Assembly: GCF_900095865.1 (NCBI RefSeq)
Contig: NZ_FMIZ01000006.1
Location: 248,001-312,000, forward strand
DNA from: Massilioclostridium coli
GTDB taxonomy: Bacteria > Bacillota > Clostridia > Oscillospirales > Ruminococcaceae
Direction: 5' to 3'
Length of the DNA stretch: 64,000 bases
Shown: in pieces, positions 4,104 through 48,160 of the stretch
Layout of the letters: every line of letters starts with the position of its first letter
Position numbering within the stretch: the first letter of the stretch is position 1
Position numbers and translations under genes: made by a program
Notes under the pieces: model-generated
The model's input: the letters and a program-made list of their open reading frames with translations, nothing else
What the model was told of the DNA's origin: nothing
Database searches by the model: none

Positions 4104-7100
4104 TTATTTTTTCTTACGGGAAAGTAATACTGCTGTGCCTGCTACTGCCAACATTACTACACCTGCGATTGGAGCAAAATCCCCTGTTTTCGCTGCGTTT
4201 GCTTTTGTTGTTGTATTTTCCTGTCCAGTCTGAGTAGCATTGTTATCAGACGGTGTTTCTGTTTCCATCCCTTCTACTGCTACTAAACTATCCATTGCAG
4301 ACTGCACAGATTGTACTGCTGCGTCTACTTCTTCCTGGGTTGCGTTTTCATTTTCCAGTACTGCTTTTGCGTCATTTATTGCTGCTTCCAGTACTGCGTA
4401 GCTTTCCGCTGTGTATGCGTTCGCATCCACTTTCTCTGCCTCTGCTACTACTTCTTCCAAAATAGATTTATCTGCTTTGTATCTCAGGTTCAACATTGCG
4501 TTTAACAGATTATCCGCTACTTCATTGATTTCCGCCTGCATAGCGTCTCCATTATTGTAAGTATTCTGCGCCGCTTCTAATGCTGCGGTAAATTCCGCTT
4601 TTCCCGCTTCTACATAACGGTCAAGTTCCGCATTGATTTCATTGGCTGCTTCAATCAAAGAAGCTAACGCTGTTTTATCTCCAGCTACAAACCCCAGTTT
4701 ATGAATTTCGTTCATTAAGGTTTTCCATGCTGCATTTACTTCTTCCTGGGTTGCTGCTGCGTTATTTGCTACTGCCTTGGCATTTTCCAATGCTGCATCA
4801 AATGTTTTTTGTACACTTTCAATGGCATTGTCATATTCCCCGCTTGCTTTGGCTTGTTCCGCATAAGCAATCACAGAATTCAAAATAGAAGTATCTGCAC
4901 TTAATTCTACTGGAATTTCTTGATATGGAGTAACCGTTACTACACCATCATTTCCTAACAGACCATTTTCTTTTAATGGCATGCTGGATATAATAAAGCT
5001 TGATTTTGCCTGATTATAAATCGTTGTAGCTACTTCTATAATAACCGTATTTTCCCCTGCGTGTACATATGGGCCAATATCTACAATTGTATTAATTTGA
5101 TTTACCATTGGAAGTTTTGTTCCATTTACAGTTACGGTAAAAGTATCTTCTACTTCTCCAAGGTCAATATATGCGCCATATCCCTGATCATAACCTTTAT
5201 CCAAATGGAATGTTGTGGTATAAGTTCCAATCCCAGCCACATTTTTCCACTCTGGATTGATGTCTTTCCATCCTTTTAACTCGGTAATGGTAACTGGATC
5301 TAATTCTTTCCACTGGGAATCATAGAAATAAATGCTGCCATTTTCATTTTTCTCTAATGACTTGATTTGTAAGTTCCATTCCTCTACTGTAAATGGATCC
5401 TGGATATTTTTTGTTACCACTTTATCTATTTGATTGTTATTTGCGGTAACAGTGTAGGTTCCTTCCTGGGTGGATTTTAATACCATACCATTATCTTGAT
5501 AATTTACTGCAGCATCCCCAGTAACATCAGTTGCATAAACCGATTGTGGAGTTAAACCGTTTTCAATTGCCTCCTGGTCAGTTAACAGAGCAATCAATTT
5601 TGCTTCATCTTTGTCAAAATCAAGGTGCAATGTCACAGATTCATCGTTTTGCTGATATTCCGCAATTGGGGTGATTTCCCCTGTCCATGCGTCTAATAGG
5701 TATGGTTTCCCTTCTCCTTTTAAAGTTACATCCAGAGATTTTGCGGTTAATAAATCTTTATTGATTCCCGGATAAGCGGTTCCTGCTTTTGCTAAGGTAG
5801 CATTGGCATCTTCTGCACAGATTCTATTGTAATTATAAAGATAATAGAAATCTCCATTGTCATCTACCTGATGTTTTGCCAACAAGTCAGTTGGTGTGCT
5901 GTATTGAGCATCTGGCTGAACATTTAATTCTGTCAATGCTGTTGGAAGCTGGTCGTAATCCGATACTTGTTTCACATTTGGATTTTGCAGCAACGTATTC
6001 ATGGCGTTGACAATATCCTGGTCGGTATAGCCTTCATTTACTTCGCTGCGGTACATCAGTTTGCTTGGAGCATCCCCTACAACCACAATCTTCATACCAT
6101 CATTAGCAAGGTCAATCATCCGCTGTGCCACATCCGGTGACATCCTATCTTCATTGTGGATGACAATCGCTTTATAGGCTGGACCGTTTTCATTTAACAC
6201 CCCATTGGTGACAGTGGCGGTTTCCAGATTCAAAATATCTGGGTTTACAAATTCATAGGAGTAGCCATTGCGGTTTAAAATGCTGTCATCTGGGAACCAA
6301 TCTTCCCCATCGCCACCGCTCTTCATGTAATTATCCTCATAGGTATGGCGGTAAACAGCGATATCTATTTTGGATTCTTTCTGCATGATATAGTTATAAC
6401 GGGTGAAATATTCAATATAATCTGCTGCGTTTTCATATGAAGTATTTTTATTCCATTCATTCGAAATATATCCCATAAAAGGTGCATATCCAGGCCAAAA
6501 ATCTCCCATTATACCATGGATACCTTCTTGTAATTCTCCACTATAAGCTGCGCCATGCAATACCTGACGGTTCATTCCTGCTGCCCAGCTCCGTTTCAGA
6601 TGCCAAGCGATATCTTCATAGCTCTGCCCATAAGCATTTCCAAATTCGGCTGCAGCTTCATAGGAATAAATCTGCTTGTCCGTCATATGTACAGCAGAAG
6701 CCATCATTCTCAAATTATCTAAAGATGCTCTGTTTAAGGATTCTCCTTCCGGAATTGCTACAGATAAAGCAGAAGTTTCTACTTCCATTGGTTTGTTATA
6801 AGCTACCTGATAACGGATATTCATACCATATTCTTCTGCCATTGTTTCCAGTGGTTTCAGATGATATTCATTATAGCAATAGGTTACAACTTCGTTATAA
6901 TCATTGTTAATTTGTTCGGTTAAATCAGCATCTGTAAAATCATAATTTGGACCTTCTTGGGTCTGATAATAATTTCCGCCACCAATAACAGGTAAATATG
7001 GAGTGATGTCATATCCTTTTTGCTGTTTGAAAATTTCCTGGAATCCTCTTGTCCACTCTTTATCTACCTGATTTTCCAAAGAATCATTAAATAAAGAATT

Positions 7101-7955: not shown

Positions 7956-8142
7956 AATTTCCTCCTTAGTAAAATTTATAACCATAAATTATGCTTATGT
8001 TTTATATTATATAGTTGTTTTGACGGTTACTCAATCAGCTATTCGTACATTACTATGATAAAAAAACAACATGTTTCAAAAAATAATCTATTGTAAAATT
8101 TGTAAAACTGTGCTACTCTAATTCATAAAGGGGGAAGAAAAA

Positions 8143-9123
8143 TTGAAAACAATTGATGATTATAAAAGTATTTTTGATCATTTTATGTATGAATATATGG
8201 ACCACAAACTACCCTTTCATGATTCTACCGCAGTATTGCAATGGGACCAAAATCAAAAACTGTTTATTTCGGGACAACAATCATTTGTAATATTATTTCA
8301 TCCTAATATAAGCCTGTTTCCAAATGCAAAAAATATAACCATACATAACCATAATTTCTATGAGATGGCATATGTTTACAAAGGAAGATGCACCAACTAT
8401 TTTGAAAATAACCAGTTTGAGATGAAAGAGGGAGAAATCCTGCTATTAAATCCAACGGTTTACCATGATATCTGCACCACTTCCCCTAACGATTGTATCG
8501 TAAATATCCTATTTAATCCCGAACTATTTGAAACAGCTATGCTCCCAATGCTCTCCAATAACCATTTAATGCTAAATTTTTTCGCAAAATATACTTATCA
8601 GATTGGAAAATCCAGTGATTATCTACATTTCCATCCAAGCGATGACCCTACTATCTACCAAACTTTAGATTCCCTAGTAATGGAGTATTTTGAAAAATCT
8701 GTTTTTTATGAAAATATCTGCCAGTCCCTGTTAATGATCCTTCTCTCCCGTTTAACAGTATCCTATTGTAAACAGATTGGATTAAACCCAGATAACCAAG
8801 AACAAGATTCTGTTATTATATCCCTGTTAGGATATATGCAGGAGCATTGTATTGATACCAGTTTAGAGCAAGTTGCTGACCATTTTCATTATTCCACAAC
8901 TCATATTAGCCGATTATTAAAAAAACATACTGGTAAAGGGTTTATTGAGATTATGCAAAATTTTAAGCTGGAAAAAATTAAAAGCTACCTTTCCGATACC
9001 GATTTTACTGTGGAAAACATTTCTCAAATTATGGGTTATAACGATGTAAACTATTTATATAAAATTTTTAAAAATAAATATGGTATAACCCCCAACGAAT
9101 ACCGGAAACAATACCATCAATAA
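8143..9123 (+). CDS. AraC-family transcriptional regulator
   Basis: The 326-residue protein begins at TTG 8143, with GGGGGAAG seven bases upstream; no ATG is better placed. The N-terminal half is a cupin-like sensor (THNHNFYE-type block ITIHNHNFYEMAYVYKG, then EMKEGEILLLNPTVYHDI). The C-terminal 100 residues contain the two helix-turn-helix units of the AraC family (TSLEQVADHFHYSTTHISRLLKK and VENISQIMGYNDVNYLYKIFKNKYGITPNEYRK). It lies 187 bp from the divergent GH106-like gene. By the usual arrangement in polysaccharide loci it is the likely activator of that gene in response to a released sugar. The inducer cannot be told. Confidence 0.85.
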   Translation: MKTIDDYKSIFDHFMYEYMDHKLPFHDSTAVLQWDQNQKLFISGQQSFVILFHPNISLFPNAKNITIHNHNFYEMAYVYKGRCTNYFENNQFEMKEGEILLLNPTVYHDICTTSPNDCIVNILFNPELFETAMLPMLSNNHLMLNFFAKYTYQIGKSSDYLHFHPSDDPTIYQTLDSLVMEYFEKSVFYENICQSLLMILLSRLTVSYCKQIGLNPDNQEQDSVIISLLGYMQEHCIDTSLEQVADHFHYSTTHISRLLKKHTGKGFIEIMQNFKLEKIKSYLSDTDFTVENISQIMGYNDVNYLYKIFKNKYGITPNEYRKQYHQ

Positions 9124-9129
9124 TATCAT

Positions 9130-9163
9130 AAAAAACCACCCAGAAAAATCTGAGTGGTTTTCT
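9130..9163. terminator. Bidirectional terminator between AraC gene and release factor 3
   Basis: The hairpin AAAACCACCCAGA / TCTGAGTGGTTTT (one mismatch) has A/T runs on both sides. It sits between two convergent genes. Confidence 0.8.
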
Positions 9164-9165
9164 TG

Positions 9166-10749
9166 TTATCTGCTAAATTCAGCTAATTCTAAACCTTCGT
9201 TGTGTTCTAGTGCCCATTGAATACTCCAACTGTTGGAAAATAGCAACAATTTATTTCCTTTTAAATCCTGTACAACCTTTGTACCAGACATCAAATCCAA
9301 ACTGTTTACATCAACATCTTTGTTTTCAATCCAACGGATATACTGATATGGCAACCCGGACATCCGGATATCCACATGGTATTCGTTCTTCAAACGGTAT
9401 TCCAACACTTCAAATTGCAGGACGCCTACTGCACCTACAATCACTTCTTCCATACCAGAATCCAGCTCCTGGAAAATCTGGATTGCCCCTTCTTGGGCAA
9501 TCTGAGTCATCCCTTTTACAAATTGTTTTCTTTTTAAGGTATCCACCTGGGTAACCAGATTAAAATGCTCCGGCGCAAAGGTTGGAATCCCTTCAAACAC
9601 CATCTTCCGGTTTGGGGAACACAAAGTATCCCCAATAGAAAAAATACCTGGGTCGAAAATCCCCAAAATATCCCCAGCATAAGCTTCTTCCACAATTTCA
9701 CGTTCCTGCGCCATCATCTGCTGAGGCTGGGCAAGTTTTAATTTTTTACCACCCTGTACATGGAGTACTTCCATCCCTTTTTCAAATTTACCGGAACAAA
9801 TCCGCATAAACGCAATCCTATCACGGTGAGCTTTGTTCATATTTGCCTGAATTTTAAAGACAAATCCTGAAAAATCCTCATCAAACGGGCTTATCTGCCC
9901 AATGTCCGAATTACGGGATAATGGTGGTGTTGTCATCTGTAAGAAATTTTCCAGGAATGGTTCCACGCCAAAATTGGTCAATGCGGAACCAAAAAAGACA
10001 GGAGAAAGCTGACCAGTATTTACCTTTTCCATGTCAAATTCATATCCGGCACCATCTAGCAACTCTACATCATCCACCAAGGTATGATAATGTTCCGAAC
10101 CAATCAATTTTTCCAGATTGGTATCATTCAAATCTGCTGCAATAGAGTCTACTTCCCGTTGCCCATTGTTGGCTGTAAACGCTAAAATTTCCCGTTTTTT
10201 TCGGTCAAATACCCCTTTGAACTCCTTACCGGAACCAATCGGCCAGTTTACTGGATAAGTCTGAATTCCCAGTTCTTCCTCAATTTCCTCCATCAAATCA
10301 AATGGATTCCTGGCTTCCCGGTCCATTTTGTTAATAAAAGTAAAAATCGGGATGTGCCGCATGACACAAACCTTAAATAACTTTCTGGTTTGGTTTTCAA
10401 CACCCTTGGAGGCATCAATCACCATAACAGCAGAATCCGCTGCCATTAAGGTGCGGAAAGTATCTTCGGAGAAGTCCTGATGCCCTGGGGTATCCAAAAT
10501 ATTAATGCAATAGCCTTCATATTCAAACTGCATTACAGAGGAAGTGACCGAAATCCCCCTTTGTTTTTCAATTTCCATCCAATCGGAAACCGCATGTTTC
10601 GCAGTTTTTTTCCCTTTTACAGAACCAGCTAAGGCAATTGCTCCACCGTACAACAAGAACTTTTCCGTTAAAGTCGTTTTACCAGCGTCAGGGTGGGAAA
10701 TAATCGCAAAAGTTCTACGTCGTTTAATCTCATTTTCGTAACTTGACAA
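9166..10749 (-). CDS. prfC: Peptide chain release factor 3
   Basis: This translational GTPase recycles RF1/RF2 from the ribosome after peptide release. The G-domain motifs are G1 SHPDAGKTTL, G2/switch region KQRGISVTSS, G3 DTPGHQDF and G4 NKMD, followed by domain II and III sequence typical of RF3 rather than EF-G. The length of about 527 residues matches the family. The best start is TTG at 10749: AGGAGG sits seven bases upstream, giving M-SSYENEIKRRRTFAIISH. The ATG at 10773 would place the ribosome site inside the gene. It appears to be a single-gene unit with a shared terminator. Confidence 0.95.
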   Translation of the reverse strand: MSSYENEIKRRRTFAIISHPDAGKTTLTEKFLLYGGAIALAGSVKGKKTAKHAVSDWMEIEKQRGISVTSSVMQFEYEGYCINILDTPGHQDFSEDTFRTLMAADSAVMVIDASKGVENQTRKLFKVCVMRHIPIFTFINKMDREARNPFDLMEEIEEELGIQTYPVNWPIGSGKEFKGVFDRKKREILAFTANNGQREVDSIAADLNDTNLEKLIGSEHYHTLVDDVELLDGAGYEFDMEKVNTGQLSPVFFGSALTNFGVEPFLENFLQMTTPPLSRNSDIGQISPFDEDFSGFVFKIQANMNKAHRDRIAFMRICSGKFEKGMEVLHVQGGKKLKLAQPQQMMAQEREIVEEAYAGDILGIFDPGIFSIGDTLCSPNRKMVFEGIPTFAPEHFNLVTQVDTLKRKQFVKGMTQIAQEGAIQIFQELDSGMEEVIVGAVGVLQFEVLEYRLKNEYHVDIRMSGLPYQYIRWIENKDVDVNSLDLMSGTKVVQDLKGNKLLLFSNSWSIQWALEHNEGLELAEFSR

Positions 10750-38123: not shown

Positions 38124-39398
38124 CTATTTTGTATTGTTACCAATCCTCTTTCCTCTTGTTCCTACTGTTAAAAGAATAGCTCCTCCTAATAACATAGCAA
38201 CTCCTACAAATGGAGCATGGTCACCAGTAGCAGGGATATTAGAAGTATTGGTACCTGGTTTTCCAGTAGGTTGTTCTGGTTTCGCTTCTGGAACTGGATC
38301 TGGATTTGGTTTAATGGTTTCTGAAGTTTCAGCAATAGCATAAAGGCTGAAATGGCTGGCGTCAAATCCTATAAAAGGAAAATCCTCTACCACATCTATC
38401 ATTACGGATTCTACCTCAGTTGCAGCCCCTTGGCTATCAATACGATATACTTTGGTTCGGCTTGGGTCATACCCTTCTGGTAATGGAGCTGCGATTGCTA
38501 CTTCCCCTTTTGGCTGGATCTCCTCCCCATTATTCATCAAAGAAATATCATATAACGTAAAATGATCAGCATCAATAGCGCTTTTTACCATTTCATAATC
38601 GTTACCTTCGGTGATCTGACGGGAATTCATCGTAGTGCCTTCTGGGACAATAGATTCATCCGCTGTAATAATAATATTAGTTTCTGGATCATACGCAATA
38701 GATGTTGGCATATAGTCTAAGCTTGGGAATTGATCTACGGGTTGGAAAAAAATGTATTTCCAATCTTCACCGTTCTGTGCTACCGTCAAGACACATTTGG
38801 TATATTCAGATTCGTTGTCCATATTTGGATTTTGATCCGCAGTTTTGTTCGAAACTTTAGCATAAATTTCAACATAAGTTTCAGTGCCTACGACTGGCTG
38901 AATACCAACCAACTCTGTTAAATAAGGAGCATCTCCAATTCCAGCTTCAGGAATCACGAAACTATCCAGTTCCGCATGATATTCGCCCAATATGCCTAAA
39001 TCTACTCCGGTCATGTCAGGAACACTTTTGTAGTATTGAGCTGTAATAGCAGCAAAATCATCATATGGGATAACATATTGGTAATTCTCTGGCTGATAAT
39101 ATTTTTGGTCATATACCTGGTCATTACCTTTCATTTTTGTAACCTGAAAAGCATCCGCCGCAGGTGGAACCTCTTCAAAGAAATGGTCTGCCCGTTCCGC
39201 ATCACTTGTAAACTCTGTAAATTGTGTGTAATTTACATATTCTTTTATGGTTTCTTCCATCTCAGCTTTGGTAAAATCCGGAGGTAGGAATTGATTCCCT
39301 TCTGCTGCCAAAGTGGTTAGAGGAAATGCAGCCAGCGCCATTACACCAGCTAAAAGAATTGCCCCTATCTTCTTTTTCATAGATTTTTGAAATTTCAC
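38124..39398 (-). CDS. Secreted wall-anchored protein with IPATG sorting signal
   Basis: I take GTG 39398 as start: GGAAGGAG lies eight bases upstream, whereas the in-frame GTG at 39407 overlaps that site. A signal peptide (KKKIGAILLAGVMALAAFPLTTLAA) is followed by about 320 residues of unrecognised, acidic, extracellular sequence. A Pro-rich linker (KPNPDPVPEAKPEQPTGKPG) and NIPATGDHAPF with hydrophobic segment and basic tail complete it; this is an LPxTG-like signal. Two short segments, 'ADHFTLYDISLMN' and 'ASHFSLYAIAE', are related and occur in other Clostridia surface proteins. The promoter region carries a large inverted repeat. Function unknown. Confidence 0.75.
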   Translation of the reverse strand: MKFQKSMKKKIGAILLAGVMALAAFPLTTLAAEGNQFLPPDFTKAEMEETIKEYVNYTQFTEFTSDAERADHFFEEVPPAADAFQVTKMKGNDQVYDQKYYQPENYQYVIPYDDFAAITAQYYKSVPDMTGVDLGILGEYHAELDSFVIPEAGIGDAPYLTELVGIQPVVGTETYVEIYAKVSNKTADQNPNMDNESEYTKCVLTVAQNGEDWKYIFFQPVDQFPSLDYMPTSIAYDPETNIIITADESIVPEGTTMNSRQITEGNDYEMVKSAIDADHFTLYDISLMNNGEEIQPKGEVAIAAPLPEGYDPSRTKVYRIDSQGAATEVESVMIDVVEDFPFIGFDASHFSLYAIAETSETIKPNPDPVPEAKPEQPTGKPGTNTSNIPATGDHAPFVGVAMLLGGAILLTVGTRGKRIGNNTK

Positions 39399-39449
39399 AA
39401 GTAGCACTCCTTCCTTTTTTCTATTTTCTTCTTGTGAATCAGATAATGA

Positions 39450-39705: not shown

Positions 39706-40653
39706 TTATAGTCGCAATGTATTCCACAAACGCAACAATGTCTGATTGCCATTCTCATTGGATGTCATGATAACTTCCCCAACATAGTAGCTCCTTGCAT
39801 TAAAATAATCATCTTCTATCTGAATATTGTCCCCAGGATAGGCTGCCAGAAGTTCTGGTAATATAACCTCTACTTCCATGGATTTTACACGGGAGTTTAA
39901 TGCAACTTGTTTTACCGCATCATCTGGCTGGGTTTTCCAAGCTGCTGGCAAACGGTAATACCGTTCTCGTTGAATTTTATAATCAATCGCATAAGGGGCG
40001 TCAAAATAATTGGAATAATCCTGTGGATTGTCAGGATTTTGCCAATAAATCCTAGATAATAACTGGCTTCGGTCATTGGTGTACCGAAAACTAGTATAGT
40101 AGTGCTCAGAGTCTGGTTTATTTCCAATGATATACATCTTTTGATTGAGCCATCGAGCGGTTAATGTTCCATCTTTTGTTACCAGTGGAAAATAATAGTA
40201 TGCCCTTCTACAAAAAATATCAATTACATTCCAGGCGCTCATCCCCACAGTAATCTCTAATTTTGGCAGGGTATAACTAAGTAATCCATTCGCTTTTATC
40301 CCATAAGGAAGAGCGTAATTCTGGTAAATATATTCCGAACTGCAATTTTCCAAGACAGTAGGACGAACCTGATTTTGCAATAGCCTTGTTTCATATCCTG
40401 AGGCCTCAATCTCCAAAAATTCTCCAACAGAAGTGAGCTGGGTAACCTGTTTATCTACAAAGCCGTGGAATAACAGCTCATTCTCCAAATACACTTTAAT
40501 GCTGGCAAACTCATATGCTTGGTTTTTATCGATAAATAAACCTTTAAACTTACTCCCTACTGTATAAATGCAAGCGGAATACTCAAATTCCACCAGATGG
40601 GATAGGGTTGCTGTTTCATTATTTACTGTAGAAGCTAATACAAGGATATTCAT
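39706..40653 (-). CDS. Phage baseplate hub-like protein (XkdQ/GpD type)
   Basis: This 315-residue protein is last in the phage block. It resembles myophage or PBSX hub proteins: an N-terminal beta domain with KVYLENELLFHGFVDKQVTQL and EFLEIEASGYETRLLQNQ, then EITVGMSAWNVIDIFCRRAYYYFP, where 'saw.vi..fc' precedes the second domain. It ends with a beta domain (PGDNIQIEDDYFNARSYYVGEVI). The start overlaps the preceding gene's stop by 4 bp. No tail fibre, tube or lysis gene follows; the next gene is a bacterial surface protein 300 bp away. The hub call rests on pattern, not on a search. Confidence 0.55.
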   Translation of the reverse strand: MNILVLASTVNNETATLSHLVEFEYSACIYTVGSKFKGLFIDKNQAYEFASIKVYLENELLFHGFVDKQVTQLTSVGEFLEIEASGYETRLLQNQVRPTVLENCSSEYIYQNYALPYGIKANGLLSYTLPKLEITVGMSAWNVIDIFCRRAYYYFPLVTKDGTLTARWLNQKMYIIGNKPDSEHYYTSFRYTNDRSQLLSRIYWQNPDNPQDYSNYFDAPYAIDYKIQRERYYRLPAAWKTQPDDAVKQVALNSRVKSMEVEVILPELLAAYPGDNIQIEDDYFNARSYYVGEVIMTSNENGNQTLLRLWNTLRL

Positions 40654-41333
40654 AATGTCACCTCAGTAAAAATAAAACGGCAGTTCCATCCATTGGGTAA
40701 TATCTTTTTGATGGAAAAACTGGATAAAACAGCATCCATCTCCGATTCATCCGGCAGGATTACCGTCTGTTTTTCCCCTGCCGAATACACTTGATACACC
40801 TGTTGATATTGCTCCTTGTCCAATACCCCTTCAAACGAAAAGATACGGCTTTTTTTCCCTAAATCTTGAATGACTTCCCCAAGAAAAGCGGAAAAACGAG
40901 ACACCAGATGCCGTTTGCACACCAAAGAAACCGTTTCTGGATCACATGGTATTTTGATACTACCAAAGGATATTGTATTGGAAGAGTGGGAGAACTTTAA
41001 CTGCATTTCAGTATAAAAAGCATCTGCTTTACTATGGTAGGTAATTCCACCCACCGCAATTCCCTGATATCCAGTGAGTGTAGATTCTGATAACATAACT
41101 AATATTTTGTCTATCATCTGGTTGCATTGGTTGCTTTCCATATAAAATGGAACATAAACTCCAATATGAATCACTGTTTGTTGGATACCATTTTGCTGCT
41201 CCAGAGTTTTGTTCCCCACTGTAATCCGAATCCGTTCCAACGGAATAACTTGCTTCGAAAATTCAGGGACAACCTCAACCTCTGGCATATTCTGTCGTAA
41301 TATCTCCATTAATTGTTCTATCAATTGTTCCAT
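40650..41333 (-). CDS. Phage tail-completion/baseplate-like fusion protein
   Basis: ATG 41333 follows GGGAGGGGACAGG; an in-frame Met at 41366 has no site. Residues 1-105 look like a small tail-completion protein (IRITVGNKTLEQ, HIGVYVPFYMES, FYTEMQLKFSH). Residues 110-227 resemble the N-terminal baseplate wedge / 'DNA circularisation' domain: KIPCDPETVSLVCKRHLVSRFS, EVIQDLGKKSRIFSFEGVL, FSIKKILPNGWNCRFIFTEV. Two proteins that are separate in most phages seem to be joined. It overlaps the hub gene by 4 bp. Confidence 0.45.
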   Translation of the reverse strand: MEQLIEQLMEILRQNMPEVEVVPEFSKQVIPLERIRITVGNKTLEQQNGIQQTVIHIGVYVPFYMESNQCNQMIDKILVMLSESTLTGYQGIAVGGITYHSKADAFYTEMQLKFSHSSNTISFGSIKIPCDPETVSLVCKRHLVSRFSAFLGEVIQDLGKKSRIFSFEGVLDKEQYQQVYQVYSAGEKQTVILPDESEMDAVLSSFSIKKILPNGWNCRFIFTEVTL

Positions 41334-41647
41334 CCTGTCCCCTCCCTTAAAGCAGCCTTCCAGCATTGAAATAGTTCAATGTATTCCAATTGTTCTACTT
41401 GATAACGGTGCTGACGGTCTACTAAAATAATTGGCTTCGTTTGCGGGGAATCCCCCTGGTATAAAAAATAAGACAATAAGTTTCCATGGTTTACATTTCC
41501 TACTGGGTAAGGTTCCGGATATTGAAACAAATTATTTTCTTCATTCTGATAGAACACCATCCCCAAGCATGGATACTTCTGGTTTCCATCTGATATTGTA
41601 AGAGGATGGGCGTAAAAGCGGAACCATTGCTCTAACTTTGGTTTCAT
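41321..41647 (-). CDS. Small phage head-tail junction protein, unassigned
   Basis: The 108-residue protein has no recognised domain. Position and size match the head-closure or stopper slot of Siphovirus/PBSX-type clusters (after the connector, before the tail completion protein). Its sequence is aromatic-rich (WFRFYAHPLTI, LFQYPEPYPVGN). It overlaps the connector by 4 bp and runs 13 bp into the next gene. The function is assigned only by context. Confidence 0.5.
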   Translation of the reverse strand: MKPKLEQWFRFYAHPLTISDGNQKYPCLGMVFYQNEENNLFQYPEPYPVGNVNHGNLLSYFLYQGDSPQTKPIILVDRQHRYQVEQLEYIELFQCWKAALREGTGWNN

Positions 41648-42021
41648 GATTCCCCTCCTGTAGTTGAAAAATAAAAATCATCTTCATATTTTAATAGAAA
41701 ATTGGCAGATGCCCAAAGTTCATCTCGCAAATTTTTTGCCCTTATCGCCTGGTTGTCATCCGAAGTACTAACAGAAATCCCTCCAGCAGAAAAACTTCCT
41801 TTTGGTACTGCAGCATCTTCTGTCAAACAGTAACGGTACCAGGCGTTCGCAGCACAAATATAGTCTAACAAGTCCTGGTGTTGTTCTATCTCTTGTTCTT
41901 CCTTTACCATCCGAAGCACTTCTTTCGTGGATAGTATAATTAATGGCATCCTAGGCAAAAGTTCTTCCATTGGTATCCCGCTCATTGCGGACACAATCTT
42001 GGCAATTTTCATTTCATCCAA
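41644..42021 (-). CDS. Phage head-tail connector-like protein
   Basis: The 125-residue protein sits directly after the capsid gene, where connector proteins (gp6/XkdH slot) are found. It is helical and includes DLLDYICAANAWYRYCL, a pattern common to 'DNA packaging / connector' proteins, and NQAIRAKNLRDELWASANFLL. The ATG is preceded by GAAAGGAGAGATTTC. A strong hairpin separates it from the capsid gene. Confidence 0.5.
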   Translation of the reverse strand: MDEMKIAKIVSAMSGIPMEELLPRMPLIILSTKEVLRMVKEEQEIEQHQDLLDYICAANAWYRYCLTEDAAVPKGSFSAGGISVSTSDDNQAIRAKNLRDELWASANFLLKYEDDFYFSTTGGES

Positions 42022-42045
42022 TGAAATCTCTCCTTTCGAACTGTA

Positions 42046-42080
42046 GTAAAATATCCAGGGGGGTTCCCTGGATATTTTAC
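42046..42080 (-). terminator. Hairpin after the capsid gene, partial terminator
   Basis: Perfect 15-bp arms GTAAAATATCCAGGG / CCCTGGATATTTTAC with a 5-nt loop lie one base past the capsid stop. The T stretch is short (TTTTAC), so it may only partly stop transcription and hold down the downstream genes. Confidence 0.6.
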
Positions 42081-42081
42081 T

Positions 42082-43095
42082 TTACGCATTTACTTTTAGC
42101 ACCTGGCACGCATCTTTAAAGATTTTAGTGAATCCAGTAATCGTGGTAATAGCGGCACGTTCCAATTGTTTATCAATTAATTTATCATATTCTACAGAAA
42201 CATCCGCAGCAATTACACGCTCCAAAGCACAGCGTTTATCCAATCCGATTATGTAACCAGTAGGAACAGAAGATGTTTTAATCAATGTAGCACCCAGAGG
42301 AGTAGTCAAACGCCCTGTGCCTTGGAAATTTAAACCTGTCAACGGATTCTTAAATTCTTCAATTTCCAACATTTTTAACATTACATCTGGAGCAACCAGC
42401 ATAGTGTTCATCTCATAAGATTCAAATTTGCTCCACAAAGTCAGCAAATCAGTATAAGTCAACTTACCAGCAGAAGCTACATTGGTTACAGTTGCTGGAT
42501 TGGAATTCCCATCTCCATCTTTTAAAATGGTAACTGCATCTGTCAATAAAGTTTTTGCTAAATAAGCGCCAATCTGACGCAAAGTCACAGTAAACACATC
42601 CAGTTTCTGGAATCGGATTGCCTCATAACTGGCTTCCAATAATCTACCACGTTTTTTCAGTGTTACCAGGTTTTCCTGTAATTTTACCGCAGTGGATGGG
42701 ATATCTCCCCCTTCATCAACCTGTTTCATCTCTTTGTCATCGTCACTTGGAATTGAACAAATAGCACGGTAATCTAGGCTATCAATTTTTGTAGTAGCCG
42801 CTACAATATCGCTTAACACATCTACTTCTTCCATGCCCTGGTAAACTGCACGGGAAATATATTCTGGAAACAACGCAGTAGAATCAGAAGTCTGGAAGAA
42901 TTTTTGCAATGCATCGGAATTTCTTCCAGCAACTTTGATATCAAACCGTTTTAACTGTCTTTGGTAAGCATCCAATCCTTCCAATGAACTTCCTTTATAA
43001 TTTTCACTTGGGTCTAAACTTTCCAGTACCTGGGTAAAACTTTTTCCTGGTACGGAATACATTCCTTTTTCTAATCGTAATGTTTCGTAATTCAT
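42082..43095 (-). CDS. Phage major capsid protein (HK97 fold)
   Basis: The 337-residue protein has an N-terminal helical part (to about residue 70), then the capsid core. Core segments include LFPEYISRAVYQGME, TKIDSLDYRAICSIPSDDDKEMKQVDEGGDIP (the 'E-loop then E.g.ip' pattern), LVTLKKRGRLLEASYEAIRFQKLDVF, MLVAPDVMLKML and GATLIKTSSVPTGYIIGLDKRCALERV. These match the PBSX-type XkdG/HK97 family. The frame is intact. It lies just downstream of a prohead protease gene, as is usual. Confidence 0.8.
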   Translation of the reverse strand: MNYETLRLEKGMYSVPGKSFTQVLESLDPSENYKGSSLEGLDAYQRQLKRFDIKVAGRNSDALQKFFQTSDSTALFPEYISRAVYQGMEEVDVLSDIVAATTKIDSLDYRAICSIPSDDDKEMKQVDEGGDIPSTAVKLQENLVTLKKRGRLLEASYEAIRFQKLDVFTVTLRQIGAYLAKTLLTDAVTILKDGDGNSNPATVTNVASAGKLTYTDLLTLWSKFESYEMNTMLVAPDVMLKMLEIEEFKNPLTGLNFQGTGRLTTPLGATLIKTSSVPTGYIIGLDKRCALERVIAADVSVEYDKLIDKQLERAAITTITGFTKIFKDACQVLKVNA

Positions 43096-43107
43096 TTTCG
43101 CTTCCTC

Positions 43108-44070
43108 CTAAATATAAAACTCACGGTTTTCTGATGTATCTTTTTTTGGTTTCTGGTATCCTAGTTGCGGTTTGCCTGTTTTCTGGCAAGATTTTGCGAA
43201 CGCTTCTTTTAATTGTTTCAGTTCTTTCGCATCCATTTTTTCCAACAAAATACGGATTGCCTGTTCATCCAACGGAGAATTGCTTAAAAAACTTAGGGAA
43301 ATAATATCAGATTTCAGGTCCTGGAGATACTCCCGCCCTAATAGAGCTTTTTCCTCTAAGCGGTCTATGTATAATTTCAGGTTTTTCTGTTCTTCCACAC
43401 TAATAGTACCTGTTCCTAGCGATTTTACCACTTCTTCATTGGTCCTTGCTTTTCGTTTTGGTTGGGTTTCGATTTGATGGTATTGTTTTGTCACACCTGC
43501 TGCTGGCTGGGCAGGGACAGCAACAAACGACCATTCATATGCGTCCACTGGCTGCTCCAATTTGGTGTAACATAGCTTTCCTTGATAAAATTCACCATTT
43601 TTATGTTCACAGCAGCCATAGCTTAAATCCGCTCCACAAATGCTACAAGTTTTCCGCAATACTCGGCAGCCTACACTGACTTCTTTTTTGATACCCGCGT
43701 CAATCTCCAATAAAAGGTCTTTGTCTTTTTCGGTACGCACCATATAGGCTTTTGCTTTTAAACAACTGTAGGGTTCCCCATATTGGGTTTTGTGTTGGGG
43801 ATCTGTTTCCACCCAGGTATGGAAAATCCTTGCCGCCTGATCCTCACTTTTTTGGCTGTGATCAAAAATCCCTGTTGTCCCTATATAAAGAGCCTTTAAT
43901 TTTTGTAAGGATTGGGTGGTAAACGCTTCCCCATCCCGGTCCACCTCATTGTCACATAACACAACTGTAAAGCTAAACAGTTCTTTTTCGGTGAAGTTTC
44001 TCCTGGTATATTGGTTAATCTTTTGTAGATCCTCTTTTTCTAACTGGTTGGTTTTAATTGTCTGGTCCAT
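43108..44070 (-). CDS. Phage prohead protease / XkdF-like protein
   Basis: The 320-residue protein has an N-terminal part like capsid maturation proteases: FSFTVVLCDNEVDRDGEAFTTQSLQKL, GIFDHSQKSEDQAARI, CLKAKAYMVRTEKDKDLLLEIDAGIKKEVSVGC, YEWSFVAVPAQPAAGVTK. A four-Cys knuckle (CSICGADLSYGCCEHKNG) is inserted before the end of this domain. The helical, Lys/Glu-rich C-terminal 120 residues resemble a scaffolding segment. Gene order portal-protease-capsid supports the call. Confidence 0.7.
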   Translation of the reverse strand: MDQTIKTNQLEKEDLQKINQYTRRNFTEKELFSFTVVLCDNEVDRDGEAFTTQSLQKLKALYIGTTGIFDHSQKSEDQAARIFHTWVETDPQHKTQYGEPYSCLKAKAYMVRTEKDKDLLLEIDAGIKKEVSVGCRVLRKTCSICGADLSYGCCEHKNGEFYQGKLCYTKLEQPVDAYEWSFVAVPAQPAAGVTKQYHQIETQPKRKARTNEEVVKSLGTGTISVEEQKNLKLYIDRLEEKALLGREYLQDLKSDIISLSFLSNSPLDEQAIRILLEKMDAKELKQLKEAFAKSCQKTGKPQLGYQKPKKDTSENREFYI

Positions 44071-44086
44071 TGATTTTCCTCCTTTC

Positions 44087-45301
44087 TCATGGTTCTATTG
44101 CTGTACTTAAGTCTACAGGAATTTGTTTTGGCTCTTCCCCGTTTTCCAATTCCAGCTTTGCGGCTTGTGCATTGTACAATCTTGCCTGGGCAGCATTGAT
44201 TTCATCTTCAAAATTCAATGTATCCCACTCTACAGTAGGATGGCAGGAAAATCCATTTAACCGCAAATATGTGGTTCCAATCCGTTCTAATACCGGATTT
44301 AATAATCTGCGGTAATAACAAAGTTCACTGTTTAATGTACTTGCCTGCTGTTGGCTCATACGTTCTGTTGTACTCCAACTCAAGCCCAGCATAAAAGGTG
44401 GAAGCCCTAATTTTGCGATAATCTGTTCCAACATCTGCCTTGCTGGTACCTCACAGTCAATCATCTGGTTATCTGCACCAATTACTTTGATATCTACATC
44501 TCCGACCGCAATAAAATCGCGGATGTCTCCGGTTTTTCCTGCAGCCATACCAGCAGCCCATTCTTTCGCGATTTGCTGTGCCCGCTCTTTTGCGTATGCA
44601 GCATCCATCCCTTGGTTAGATGGACGATAGGTCACTGCAAACCTTACATTTCCAACACGGTCAAAATTCTCTCCAATTGCATGGTAAATCTTCAATAAAA
44701 TAGAGCTGACAAACGGCAGGCTTTTCAAAATAGAATCTCCACAAACTTTTCCTGGCTGTGGATTCAATGCTGTAAATAAAATCAGCTGTGGCATCTCCAA
44801 AGGCACTGGATTTCCATGGTCATTACGGAAAATTTCAACCTGCAATGGGTTATCTCCTCTTTGGATCAAAACATTTTCAAAAGAAGAATTATATAACCCT
44901 GCAATCTGTCTTCCATTGGCGGACAATACGATTTCTCCAATGGCGTTTCCAAATAGTAGCAAGCTATCTAAATAACTACAAATAAAACTTTCCAGCCCCA
45001 TTTGGGTAGGTCCCACTTTTACTTCCCGAGCAAACTGGTTTAACTCTCGTTCCGCTGATTTCTGGTTACATACAAAACGGAATCCACCAATTAGCCGCTG
45101 AATTTTATACAAAGCGGAATCAATGACCGGAATCGCTTCCCTCATACAGGCATACAGCTTTGTTTCAGGTGTCATCAGAGGAACATACCGGTCAAGGATA
45201 TGGAATGGGTAATTTCCCGGCCTCAGCTGCACAATGGCCTCTGCTGGGGCTTCTGGCTGTTTGCGTTTTAATCGTCCCAAATTCATCCCTCCTAAATTCA
45301 A
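44087..45301 (-). CDS. Phage portal protein
   Basis: The portal is the ring at the capsid vertex through which DNA is packaged. At 404 residues the protein is of normal size. It has VPLMTPETKLYACMREAIPVIDSAL, GNAIGEIVLSANGRQIAGLYN, and the late block LGLPPFMLGLSWSTTERMSQQQASTLNSELCYYRRLLNPVLERI. That block is a portal signature. Its start overlaps the terminase stop by 4 bp. Confidence 0.85.
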   Translation of the reverse strand: MNLGGMNLGRLKRKQPEAPAEAIVQLRPGNYPFHILDRYVPLMTPETKLYACMREAIPVIDSALYKIQRLIGGFRFVCNQKSAERELNQFAREVKVGPTQMGLESFICSYLDSLLLFGNAIGEIVLSANGRQIAGLYNSSFENVLIQRGDNPLQVEIFRNDHGNPVPLEMPQLILFTALNPQPGKVCGDSILKSLPFVSSILLKIYHAIGENFDRVGNVRFAVTYRPSNQGMDAAYAKERAQQIAKEWAAGMAAGKTGDIRDFIAVGDVDIKVIGADNQMIDCEVPARQMLEQIIAKLGLPPFMLGLSWSTTERMSQQQASTLNSELCYYRRLLNPVLERIGTTYLRLNGFSCHPTVEWDTLNFEDEINAAQARLYNAQAAKLELENGEEPKQIPVDLSTAIEP

Positions 45302-46548
45302 TTTCTGGCAGCAGAATACACAAAAAAAGAGTCTTGCTGCCGGTTCCAGATGGTGGATACAAAATAGCGGATGTCATCCATGGCATGGTCATTCTCTTTT
45401 TTCACCCGATCCTGCTTGCTATTTTCTTCCCAACAATAGATAGAGAATTCTCGTATGGTATCCTTGCATTGAGGAGAAAACAAAAGCTGCCTTTTTAATA
45501 GACAATCGGATACCAAACTGATACCAGTATTCACCTGGTTGATTGCAGAAATCACCTGGAATTTTCCGTGCCGCCGGATGCACTCAATAAAACTGCTAGC
45601 AGAGGGGTCAACCACAACCGCTTGGATGGAGTATCCTTCCGCCAGTTTTTCCAATTGTTGATAGTGTTCTTCATCCGTCCTACGAAACTGTTCTTTGCGA
45701 GAATCATAGTAATATTCTTTGATACGGTAAGCGTATTCACAGCATCCCCACAACCCCATTGAGGTTGGATTGGTAATTCCATAATCACAAGAAATATAGT
45801 AAGAAGAAAACGACCGTTCCTGTAACCCAACATGAATTTCATACTGAAACATCGGGTAAACTATACCGGATTGAGAAGTCCATTTTCCCAAAACAAACCG
45901 GTCATAAAAAGCACCTGAGTACAGGGATTGATATCGTTTCAGCATCTGAGGGGATAAAGACGGGTTATCTTCCATTTGAAAATGAAGATATAACGCATGT
46001 TTTTCTTCTGCTTTTTGAATCCACTCTAAATAGAACCAATGAAAAGGATGTTCAGGATTACAGTTAAACCAAAATTTAGAACCTTCCACAGAACAACGTG
46101 CCAAAGCCTGTTCCACAAACGAACGGGGCATTAGGGCAACTTCATCAAATAAAATACCAGCTAATGTCACCCCTTGAATCAACGCTGCAGAGGATTCATC
46201 TTTTCCTCCAAACAAATAAAACCGGTTGCTCCGATCTCCGTATTGGATTTCCAAATAATTGCGGGACAATACCAAACTACATTGAAATCCCAATGAATTG
46301 GCTAGCTGGACTAATGGAGTAACAATATTTCTTTTTAAAGAGGTCAAAGTTTTGCCACACAAGGCAAAATTCTGTTGGTTAAAATAAATACTTGCCCAAA
46401 AAACAAATGATAGGGACATACAAACCGTTTTTCCACTTCGCACAGCGCCATCACAAATAATGGCGTCATAATGGCAATAAGGGCTGTTCGGGCACCACCA
46501 GGTCAATACTTTCATCTGTTTCGGGGAGAAAGCCTGTAATTTATTCAT
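45298..46548 (-). CDS. Phage terminase large subunit
   Basis: This ATPase/nuclease motor packages DNA into the prohead. The Walker A-type motif is DGAVRSGKTVC, Walker B is GILFDEVAL, and the C-terminal nuclease domain has SCDYGITNP, VVVDPSASSF and HAMDDIRYF carrying the acidic triad. At about 416 residues, with MNKLQAFSPKQMKVL at the N-terminus, it is PBSX-like (Terminase_3). ATG 46548 sits in the end of the small-subunit gene (8-bp overlap). Confidence 0.9.
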   Translation of the reverse strand: MNKLQAFSPKQMKVLTWWCPNSPYCHYDAIICDGAVRSGKTVCMSLSFVFWASIYFNQQNFALCGKTLTSLKRNIVTPLVQLANSLGFQCSLVLSRNYLEIQYGDRSNRFYLFGGKDESSAALIQGVTLAGILFDEVALMPRSFVEQALARCSVEGSKFWFNCNPEHPFHWFYLEWIQKAEEKHALYLHFQMEDNPSLSPQMLKRYQSLYSGAFYDRFVLGKWTSQSGIVYPMFQYEIHVGLQERSFSSYYISCDYGITNPTSMGLWGCCEYAYRIKEYYYDSRKEQFRRTDEEHYQQLEKLAEGYSIQAVVVDPSASSFIECIRRHGKFQVISAINQVNTGISLVSDCLLKRQLLFSPQCKDTIREFSIYCWEENSKQDRVKKENDHAMDDIRYFVSTIWNRQQDSFFVYSAARN

Positions 46549-47026
46549 CCTTATCTCCACCCCATTGTTTTGTGCCTTCTACAAAAGCCTGCAAAAATTC
46601 TTCTGTTGTTCCATGGTTTTGCTTTAATTGGATCAATTCCTGTATCAATTTTAAAGCCTGGTATCGATCAAATAATTTTACCTCCAAACAGCCATCTTTC
46701 TGTTTGATCTCCGATACCATATATAAATTCAAATTTTGCAGCTGCTTTTCATCCAATTCGTTTCCTTTCATCATTAATTGGATAATATCGTTGATTTCTC
46801 CAAACGCCAACCGTTCTAATCCAGATAAAACCATTGCTTGCAAATACTCCATATCCTTTTGTTTGGAATATTCACAAATTTGTTGTTTTATCTCTTCCCG
46901 TCCCATCAATTTAGCGGCTGTTTTTTCCGCGGACAAAGCTGGATACCCCGCTTTGATAGATGCTTCTTTTAAATTTTGAAAACAGCTAAAATAATAACAA
47001 AATAACTGTTCTTTTGGGTTTAACAT
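46541..47026 (-). CDS. Phage terminase small subunit
   Basis: The 161-residue DNA-recognition subunit of the packaging motor. The pattern NPKEQLFCYYFSCFQNLKEASIKAGYPALSAEKTAAKLMGREEIKQQI is the Terminase_2 helix-turn-helix start; a helical oligomerisation section follows. It is the first gene of the phage block. The ribosome site is AAAGGAAAA. No integrase, repressor or replication gene lies upstream. Confidence 0.85.
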   Translation of the reverse strand: MLNPKEQLFCYYFSCFQNLKEASIKAGYPALSAEKTAAKLMGREEIKQQICEYSKQKDMEYLQAMVLSGLERLAFGEINDIIQLMMKGNELDEKQLQNLNLYMVSEIKQKDGCLEVKLFDRYQALKLIQELIQLKQNHGTTEEFLQAFVEGTKQWGGDKDE

Positions 47027-47072: not shown

Positions 47073-47102
47073 AAAAAAGTTGCATGAAAACATGCAACTT
47101 TT
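47073..47102 (-). terminator. Hairpin in front of the terminase genes
   Basis: AAAAGTTGCATG / CATGCAACTTTTTT with T6 on the reverse strand lies about 50 bp upstream of the terminase start and 255 bp past the LCP-like stop. A good -10 (TATAAT at about 47145-47150, reverse strand) lies just before it. It may therefore attenuate a transcript entering the phage block. The rest of 47027-47356 has no gene. Confidence 0.6.
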
Positions 47103-47356
47103 CAAAATTATATCTATTTTTATGGAAATCCTCTAAGTTTTTATTATAGCCCAAGTAAAGCAATACTTACTTTTATTGTATTTCGCCTTTATGCCCATAC
47201 TTAGCCTGCCATACAAAAATTAGGCGTGTTGCTCAATCGAAATATAATTTTTATCATAATGTATTTGATACATCAAATTATATGCTACTATTTTTTCACA
47301 TTCCATATCAACTTGGCGACATACCACTTACCCATATACATCGATAACATATATCA

Positions 47357-48160
47357 CTAAAAATGATTTTTGATTTCCTCGATCCAAGCAGATTCATCCG
47401 ATTCTATCGGTATTATTGTAAACTCCGCTGTTTCCTGCCTTAACATCTGTTTCCACCCAAATTTTCTCAGTTCATAATCCAAACTGCTGCAATTACTATC
47501 CGTTTCGTTCATTAAAGTAGAATAAAAATCATCCAGTTTTTCTTCAAATTCTTTATTTATCTGTTGTTGGCATAATATACTCAATAGTTGGGCAATATCC
47601 CCTTGTTTTGCTAAAGCCAAAAACCGTCTGCCGTCTATCATCTGTTCTACTGGCTGGATAACAGTCATGCTGCCATCCTCCCAGATAGTTTCCACCATTT
47701 CTGAAGGTGTGTATGCCATTCCACCCAAATAATCCACAATTTGAATCAATCCGTTATAATCAATCCTCATATACCGATGGATTGTAATCTCTAATTTTTC
47801 AGATACTCCTCGTACCGCATAGGAAGCACCACCATAATCATACATTCCACTTATTGTGTCTGTTTTTCCATTTACAGTAGTTTTCATTGTAATAGGTAGT
47901 TCCGCTATCGAGATTCTATTTTGCATGGCGCTAATGTGCAACAATAAAAATCGTTCTGCCTCCCCTCCTCTAGAAGGGGTAAAAATCAAAAGAGTAGTTA
48001 AATCTTCATCTTTTGACGCCTGATATACATACTGCGTTGTTGGAGATTCTTCTTTTGTCTGGGATTGGATCATGACAATTAAAATAACCGCCGCAACCCC
48101 CCCTATAATAATAAAAGATAATAGAAAGGACTTTAAAAATAATCTAACACTCTGTTTCAC
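47357..48160 (-). CDS. LytR-CpsA-Psr-like membrane protein
   Basis: GTG 48160 follows AGGGGGATGGAAT. One membrane anchor (about residues 9-30) precedes an LCP-type domain: TTLLIFTPSRGGEAERFLLLHI, then ITIHRYMRIDYNGLIQIVDYLGGMAYTP. That second block is an LCP signature (Y.riDY.gf..iVd.lGGv). Classical LCP enzymes, which attach glycopolymers to peptidoglycan, have an Asp before the Arg in the first block; here it is TPSR, so activity may be altered. At 267 residues it is slightly short. It is alone on the strand. Confidence 0.7.
   Translation of the reverse strand: MKQSVRLFLKSFLLSFIIIGGVAAVILIVMIQSQTKEESPTTQYVYQASKDEDLTTLLIFTPSRGGEAERFLLLHISAMQNRISIAELPITMKTTVNGKTDTISGMYDYGGASYAVRGVSEKLEITIHRYMRIDYNGLIQIVDYLGGMAYTPSEMVETIWEDGSMTVIQPVEQMIDGRRFLALAKQGDIAQLLSILCQQQINKEFEEKLDDFYSTLMNETDSNCSSLDYELRKFGWKQMLRQETAEFTIIPIESDESAWIEEIKNHF

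Follow-up and report, generated by a model that had tools for sequence, protein, structure and literature searches.

A probable gene transfer agent-like operon with a strongly reduced tail in Massilioclostridium coli and its bacterial order

A 64,000-nucleotide stretch of the Massilioclostridium coli genome (contig NZ_FMIZ01000006.1, positions 248,001 to 312,000; hereafter the window) contains a compact 7.3 kb operon of nine phage-type genes. We consider it probable that this is a vertically inherited chromosomal operon of the gene transfer agent (GTA) kind, descended from a contractile-tailed phage of the type of a Tepidibacter phage-plasmid. Selection has most likely kept it for small, DNA-filled and almost tail-less particles, whose production, cargo and delivery we infer. 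The head and packaging genes are intact, and wherever lineages allow a measurement they evolve under purifying selection; the element is present in one copy per genome and follows the host phylogeny, and the tail has been cut down to the junction of collar and hub, with the tail terminator fused to an XkdP-like domain and the hub gene directly after it.

The nine open reading frames lie on the minus strand, are transcribed from 47026 to 39706, and are all open and tightly packed (Table 1). With ATG starts at 46548 for the large terminase subunit (TerL) and 41333 for the fusion gene, five of the eight junctions overlap by 4-13 bp: 8 bp between the small terminase subunit (TerS) and TerL, 4 between TerL and portal, 4 between the connectors of 125 and 108 residues, 13 between the second connector and the fusion gene, and 4 between the fusion gene and the hub. 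An earlier reading, made from the letters alone (the sequence-only reading), had described this layout correctly, and matches to profile hidden Markov models (HMMs) agree with its calls for terminases, portal, protease and capsid. A relative of the protease, in locus L300, is annotated as an XkdF-like serine protease; in the protease family, H71 and S132 are conserved. That reading had also reported tube, sheath, tape measure, lysis and integration genes to be missing; HMM searches of the block and its neighbours likewise found no sheath, tube, tape measure, baseplate J, holin, lysin or integrase, and the annotation of the same region shows no replication or integration genes. Baseplate J (PF04865) is absent from the whole genome; for the remaining tail and lysis families the search covered the block and its neighbours.

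What remains of the tail? The sequence-only reading had proposed a fused tail-completion/baseplate-like protein, and the 238-residue product is a true fusion of a terminator with a truncated XkdP-like protein. Two independent HMMs, each built from unfused relatives only, place the tail-terminator family at residues 12-130 (3e-9) and the N-domain of the XkdP-like DNA_circ_N+LysM family at residues 129-236 (3e-15), with nothing left of the LysM part. A confident structural model was obtained for the N-domain only, not for the C-part; it resembles lambda gpU (Z 13.3, root-mean-square deviation 2.7, 121 residues), many other terminators, and chain 6tba_4A of a native GTA particle (Z 10.9). The hub had been called by pattern only. 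Its AlphaFold model (predicted local distance difference test score 90.5) matches Mu gp44 (Z 25.9) as well as T4 gp27 and VgrG, so the predicted structure confirms the last gene as a hub of the Mu gp44/T4 gp27 type.

The likely blueprint of the element is a 38.8 kb circular phage-plasmid of Tepidibacter hydrothermalis (NZ_CP120734), which matches 16 of the element families without any change of order (E 1e-6 to 1e-143). Unlike the window element, it has a complete phage-type set, including a tape measure (PF10145, 796 residues), holin, endolysin and a portal with a C-terminal MuF domain; its TerL gave no match to the TerL family of the element. The stretch from tube to LysM gene spans 3.2 kb in the phage-plasmid versus 79-1221 bp in the 27 element loci that hold both genes, which means that in those loci the tape measure has disappeared or been cut down to a few hundred residues at the most. 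The window has lost the entire tube section, and with its terminator joined to the XkdP-like domain, an assembled particle would probably bring the collar straight onto the hub. NZ_CP120734 displays the ancestral arrangement; the elements have lost or shortened the tape measure, some have lost the sheath as well, and about half, the window among them, retain head and hub only. The sequence-only reading had held that relatives with full tail genes would point to a recent deletion. Sister lineages do keep sheath, tube and baseplate, but the tail loss is common to the same-genus species and another genus and is therefore old. The tree made it seem likely that the window clade and a large head-only clade had lost their tails convergently; we do not claim this, as an approximately unbiased test allows one common clade (p 0.46).

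The distribution was surveyed with one genome per species: 298 from the family of M. coli, 295 from its order and 299 drawn from its phylum. About 95 loci were collected and their genes labelled by HMM; because gene calling was mechanical, single absences in single loci are unreliable. A portal profile detected the element in 127 of the 298 family genomes and 43 of the 295 order genomes, and in no other genome among the 299 from the phylum. There is one copy per genome; in the two exceptions (G008 and G110) the profile matched partially, on separate contigs. Many genera carry the element throughout, with four of four genomes positive in each of g4, g19, g27, g75, g87, g89, g132 and g137, while other genera are without the element. 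Three architectures recur. Form A combines the head genes with sheath, tube, LysM protein, hub, gp25-like protein, baseplate J and gp48; form B, from family f24, is missing the sheath; form C, to which the window belongs, is limited to head, connectors, terminator/XkdP-like protein and hub. The 58 genomes in our trees comprise 19 of form A, 8 of form B and 31 of form C. A one-protein query of IMG/VR for close relatives returned nothing; a profile search gave 365 matches, and those of the 80 retained contigs that were long enough to read show these same three architectures, not full phages.

Several loci depart in detail. Part of the head-only clade (L045-L048, L088, L089, L098, L099 and others) has the order portal-capsid-protease rather than portal-protease-capsid, and in L034 (genome G011) a 498-residue protein of no clear family lies between protease and capsid (8140-9636). 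Three strongly reduced genomes (0.7-0.9 Mb) retain an intact portal (L119, L120 and L124, starting at 4495, 4498 and 4495 when the portal is oriented to the plus strand). The 19.5 kb examined around each holds none of the other element genes, and each portal has a GTTGC..GCAAC hairpin at most about 95 nt upstream. A changed genetic code was rejected as the cause of portal-only loci, since translation with code 4 yielded nothing more. Human faecal records labelled "Bacteriophage sp." (MT835508, MT835769, MT835952, MT836604 and MT838993) carry these operons. In MT835508 (L028) the head operon sits amid many genes that match no element family, which suggests that some of the records may be bacterial DNA and not phage genomes.

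Inheritance was assessed by comparing trees of TerL, portal and capsid together with rpoB trees for the 58 genomes. The two agree closely (Mantel r 0.80, permutation maximum 0.155), sharing 32 of 55 splits (random maximum 3) with two strong conflicts; the portal alone gives r 0.82 and no strong conflict. Within genera, dN/dS ranges from 0.04 to 0.48 for pairs with estimable dS, and in the least divergent pair (g59, dS 0.14-0.48) every gene lies between 0.04 and 0.22. Five key genes are full-length in 64 of the 84 loci with enough context, the remainder reflecting partly gene-calling clashes and partly true absences. Residues that we take, from knowledge of the families, to be the Walker A, Walker B and nuclease-type residues of TerL are conserved, as is the presumed active-site H/S pair of the protease. 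The sister species G001, of the same genus, has three upstream neighbours in common with the window, and G004 has the LCP-domain neighbour in common with it; on the downstream side, G001, G004 and g93 have genes in common, which in G001 encode a two-component system and phosphate-type transporters, and the window differs there. The sequence-only reading had taken the intact frames as a sign of selection and not of a decaying prophage. Single copy, a host-congruent tree, dN/dS well below 1, conserved catalytic residues and chromosomal neighbours common to the window, the sister species and another genus all speak for that view and for domestication.

Table 1. Operon features and the upstream neighbour, in window coordinates
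Feature	Position	Strand	Basis or remark
Leader hairpin, inverted repeat AGTTGCA-N8-TGCAACT (47078-47099) then T-run	47074..47103	-	about 50 nt 5' of TerS
Terminase small subunit, 161 aa	46541..47026	-	Terminase_2 5e-18
Terminase large subunit, PBSX family, 420 aa (or from ATG 46548)	45298..46560	-	TIGR01547 1e-53
Portal, 404 aa	44087..45301	-	phrog_30703 1e-138
Prohead protease-like protein, cysteine-rich insert, 320 aa	43108..44070	-	phrog_16951 2e-94
Major capsid protein, HK97 type, 337 aa	42082..43095	-	phrog_3922 6e-103, Phage_capsid_4 3e-19
Connector 1 (head-tail adaptor position), 125 aa	41644..42021	-	element family conn1; phrog_541 weak
Connector 2, 108 aa	41321..41647	-	position only; without family match of its own
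Fusion of tail terminator (residues 12-130) and XkdP-like N-domain without LysM (129-236), 238 aa	40650..41366	-	HMMs and structure; start probably ATG 41333
Baseplate hub, gp27/gp44 type, 315 aa	39706..40653	-	profile match and predicted structure
LCP-domain (LytR_cpsA_psr) gene, upstream neighbour conserved in G001 and G004, outside the particle set	47357..48160	-	

Upstream of TerS lies a 22-bp inverted repeat followed by a T-run, whose exact form is found once in the 2.99-Mb genome (0.016 expected under a first-order model of the window). A relaxed form adjoins TerS in 32 of 93 loci, at 0.60 per kb there versus 0.010 per kb elsewhere in the loci. Base pairs beyond the selected core (columns 1/22, 8/15 and 9/14) are mostly kept, with compensatory changes, which favours a hairpin over the alternative of a DNA operator with dyad symmetry; several copies are without a T-run. 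No Rfam family matches, and a promoter scan did no better than shuffled sequence.

The exact motif is present in 18 of 30 genomes searched, against none for a reversed control. G001 has five exact sites, and all four extra ones stand 5' of phage-type genes: two precede BppU_N (BppU fibre) proteins and two precede MuF-ribonuclease fusions, one of them then followed by barstar. MuF joined to a barnase-like ribonuclease is found behind the leader and away from the head operon in L329 (5344-5940) and in L330 (6086-6991), where barstar is directly downstream; a MuF-GH19 gene is likewise placed in L337 (4841-6361), and an extra site in G036 precedes MuF-GH19. In G191 the leader precedes a collagen-repeat fibre and then a glucosaminidase, and in G023 an M23 peptidase; in L334 (4620-7235) the motif, a collagen-repeat fibre-like gene, DUF2977 and a glucosaminidase form one run, which looks like a counterpart of operon II of the Faecalibacterium agent discussed below. 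About half of the extra sites are beside unrelated genes. Since relatives place this leader ahead of separate genes for fibres, lysins and MuF cargo, several loci probably contribute to the particle, as is the case for other GTAs, and the leader may mark a particle regulon.

How does this element compare with known systems? It has several features of a GTA: phage-derived head and packaging genes that are chromosomal and intact, vertical inheritance, purifying selection, and no gene for integration or autonomous replication in the cluster. The alphaproteobacterial GTAs, among them RcGTA of Rhodobacter capsulatus, are domesticated head-tail clusters that are inherited vertically and have dispersed loci. 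The window element shares with RcGTA the domesticated, vertically inherited head-tail cluster and, through its terminator domain, the likeness to the GTA particle chain given above; RcGTA differs in its siphovirus-like tail, its protein families and its regulation. PBSX of Bacillus subtilis is also domesticated and shares the TerL family TIGR01547 and the XkdP-/XkdQ-like gene order. PBSX retains its complete contractile tail together with the tape measure and genes for lysis; none of the tube, sheath, tape-measure or lysis genes is in the window block, which rules out a PBSX-type defective phage. A tailocin has tube and sheath without a head, whereas the window has a head without tube and sheath.

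The nearest described system is FpGTA of Faecalibacterium prausnitzii, whose 40-nm particles have no visible tails and hold about 9 kb of DNA (Borodovich et al. 2026, PMC12946183). Reported in 2026 from one genus, it was the first GTA of human gut bacteria, in a study of 16 reference genomes of three genera and the authors' own scaffolds (PMC12946183). Its chromosomal operon likewise runs TerS, TerL, portal, one gene, capsid and then small phage proteins, without replication genes, and comprises ten genes in 10.5 kb versus nine in the 7.3 kb of the window. FpGTA is near-ubiquitous in its own genus, and more structural and lysis genes lie in a separate operon; no such second operon (baseplate, fibre, holin, endolysin) was found in the window genome, where the search covered baseplate J, which is absent. 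By analogy, the window element would work like a GTA and most resembles FpGTA, whose dimensions suggest a small capsid here too. In the literature searched, we did not find the order-wide vertical spread, the series of forms A, B and C, or the leader motif with its MuF and BppU associations described.

Could the block be something other than a GTA? The proteins belong to phage families and a related phage-plasmid exists, as one would expect if prophages had infected repeatedly and independently, each leaving head genes that decay at a rate of their own. Such a history is strongly disfavoured, and in our judgement extremely improbable, by the host-congruent tree, single copy, low dN/dS, intact frames and shared neighbours; a decaying prophage would have broken genes and neutral evolution. 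Equally improbable is a phage satellite or helper-dependent element that takes its tail from another phage. Head and packaging genes without a tail tube are known from capsid-encoding satellites, and tails of another phage could dock onto the connectors and terminator that the block retains; yet the block has no integrase or replication genes beside it and no sign of mobility, vertical inheritance with a host-congruent tree speaks against a satellite of the PICI (phage-inducible chromosomal island) or cf-PICI type, and in the window clade terminator and tail-tip protein form one direct fusion. The sequence-only reading had offered a domesticated capsid, a GTA-like particle or a satellite; the satellite finds no support, and the GTA-like particle fits best. 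A capsid serving another cell function, such as a cargo compartment, without DNA transfer is very unlikely. The lone portal that persists behind a similar leader in reduced genomes suggests that parts may have separate uses, but both terminase subunits, portal, connectors and hub have all been retained, with active-site residues conserved.

A device for toxin delivery or killing, with DNA packaging secondary, deserves more weight, unlikely as we judge it to be. MuF ribonuclease or glycosidase cargo would travel in the capsid to competitors, and barstar-type immunity would protect the producer. Two of the five exact leader sites of G001 precede MuF-ribonuclease fusions, one with barstar, G036 has its MuF-GH19 gene, and the portal of the related phage NZ_CP120734 bears a MuF domain. 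MuF polymorphic toxins are known from temperate phages of Firmicutes and were reported to be exclusive to temperate phages and prophages (Jamet et al. 2017, PMC5576092). The genes in our relatives resemble them in joining a MuF domain to a C-terminal toxin domain, here behind the leader motif; unlike those phage-only toxins, the MuF genes of G001 have the leader of an inherited element. However, the incompletely searched window genome has so far yielded no MuF gene, many genomes are without a MuF-type leader site, and the full conservation of the terminase implies that DNA packaging is kept too. A broader scheme is somewhat easier to entertain, if still doubtful: an order-wide, host-controlled regulon under one leader hairpin would build capsids that are virtually tail-less from dispersed loci and fill them with polymorphic MuF effectors (barnase-like with barstar immunity, GH19), an inherited GTA thus also serving to deliver toxins between bacteria.

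Under the GTA-like reading that we prefer, a host signal would time transcription through the leader, and the cell would assemble small capsids. TerL would pack these with host DNA without preference, and the connectors and terminator-hub parts would close the portal, giving a tail of virtually zero length. Fibres, cargo and lysins would be supplied by other loci, and lysis of some cells, by genes encoded elsewhere, would release the particles. A number of points tell against this reading. The case in this species is made from genes, from which we infer particles, packaged DNA and transfer, and the link to FpGTA is drawn from gene order and families as described for it (PMC12946183), not from sequence homology. 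TerL alone agrees less well with rpoB than the portal does (r 0.56, six strong conflicts), so that some exchange may have occurred. Saturated dS between the window and G001 means that selection there is read from other genera. The absence of the element from many genera of the order indicates that it is dispensable, and the window genome has a single exact leader site and no baseplate J.

Few GTAs are described outside the alphaproteobacteria. The present operons would extend a GTA-like system type described in 2026 in one gut genus to dozens of genera in several families of one order; what is new is the distribution, the tail-reduction series and the leader hairpin. Stepwise reduction of the tail can be followed against a phage blueprint that is still recognisable, and the leader serves as a sequence tag for parts that may lie elsewhere. 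This opens to testing how DNA might be delivered without a tail tube, how bacteria switch on such particles, and whether they carry toxins.

Other features of the window lie in and around the operon. No defence families were detected, save for a weak PglW match of an adjacent NERD gene. A perfect hairpin without a T-run (42046-42080) lies between the capsid gene and the connector genes. The gene directly downstream of the operon (38124-39407) encodes a secreted surface protein with no family match, a C-terminal IPATG sortase-like motif and a membrane anchor.

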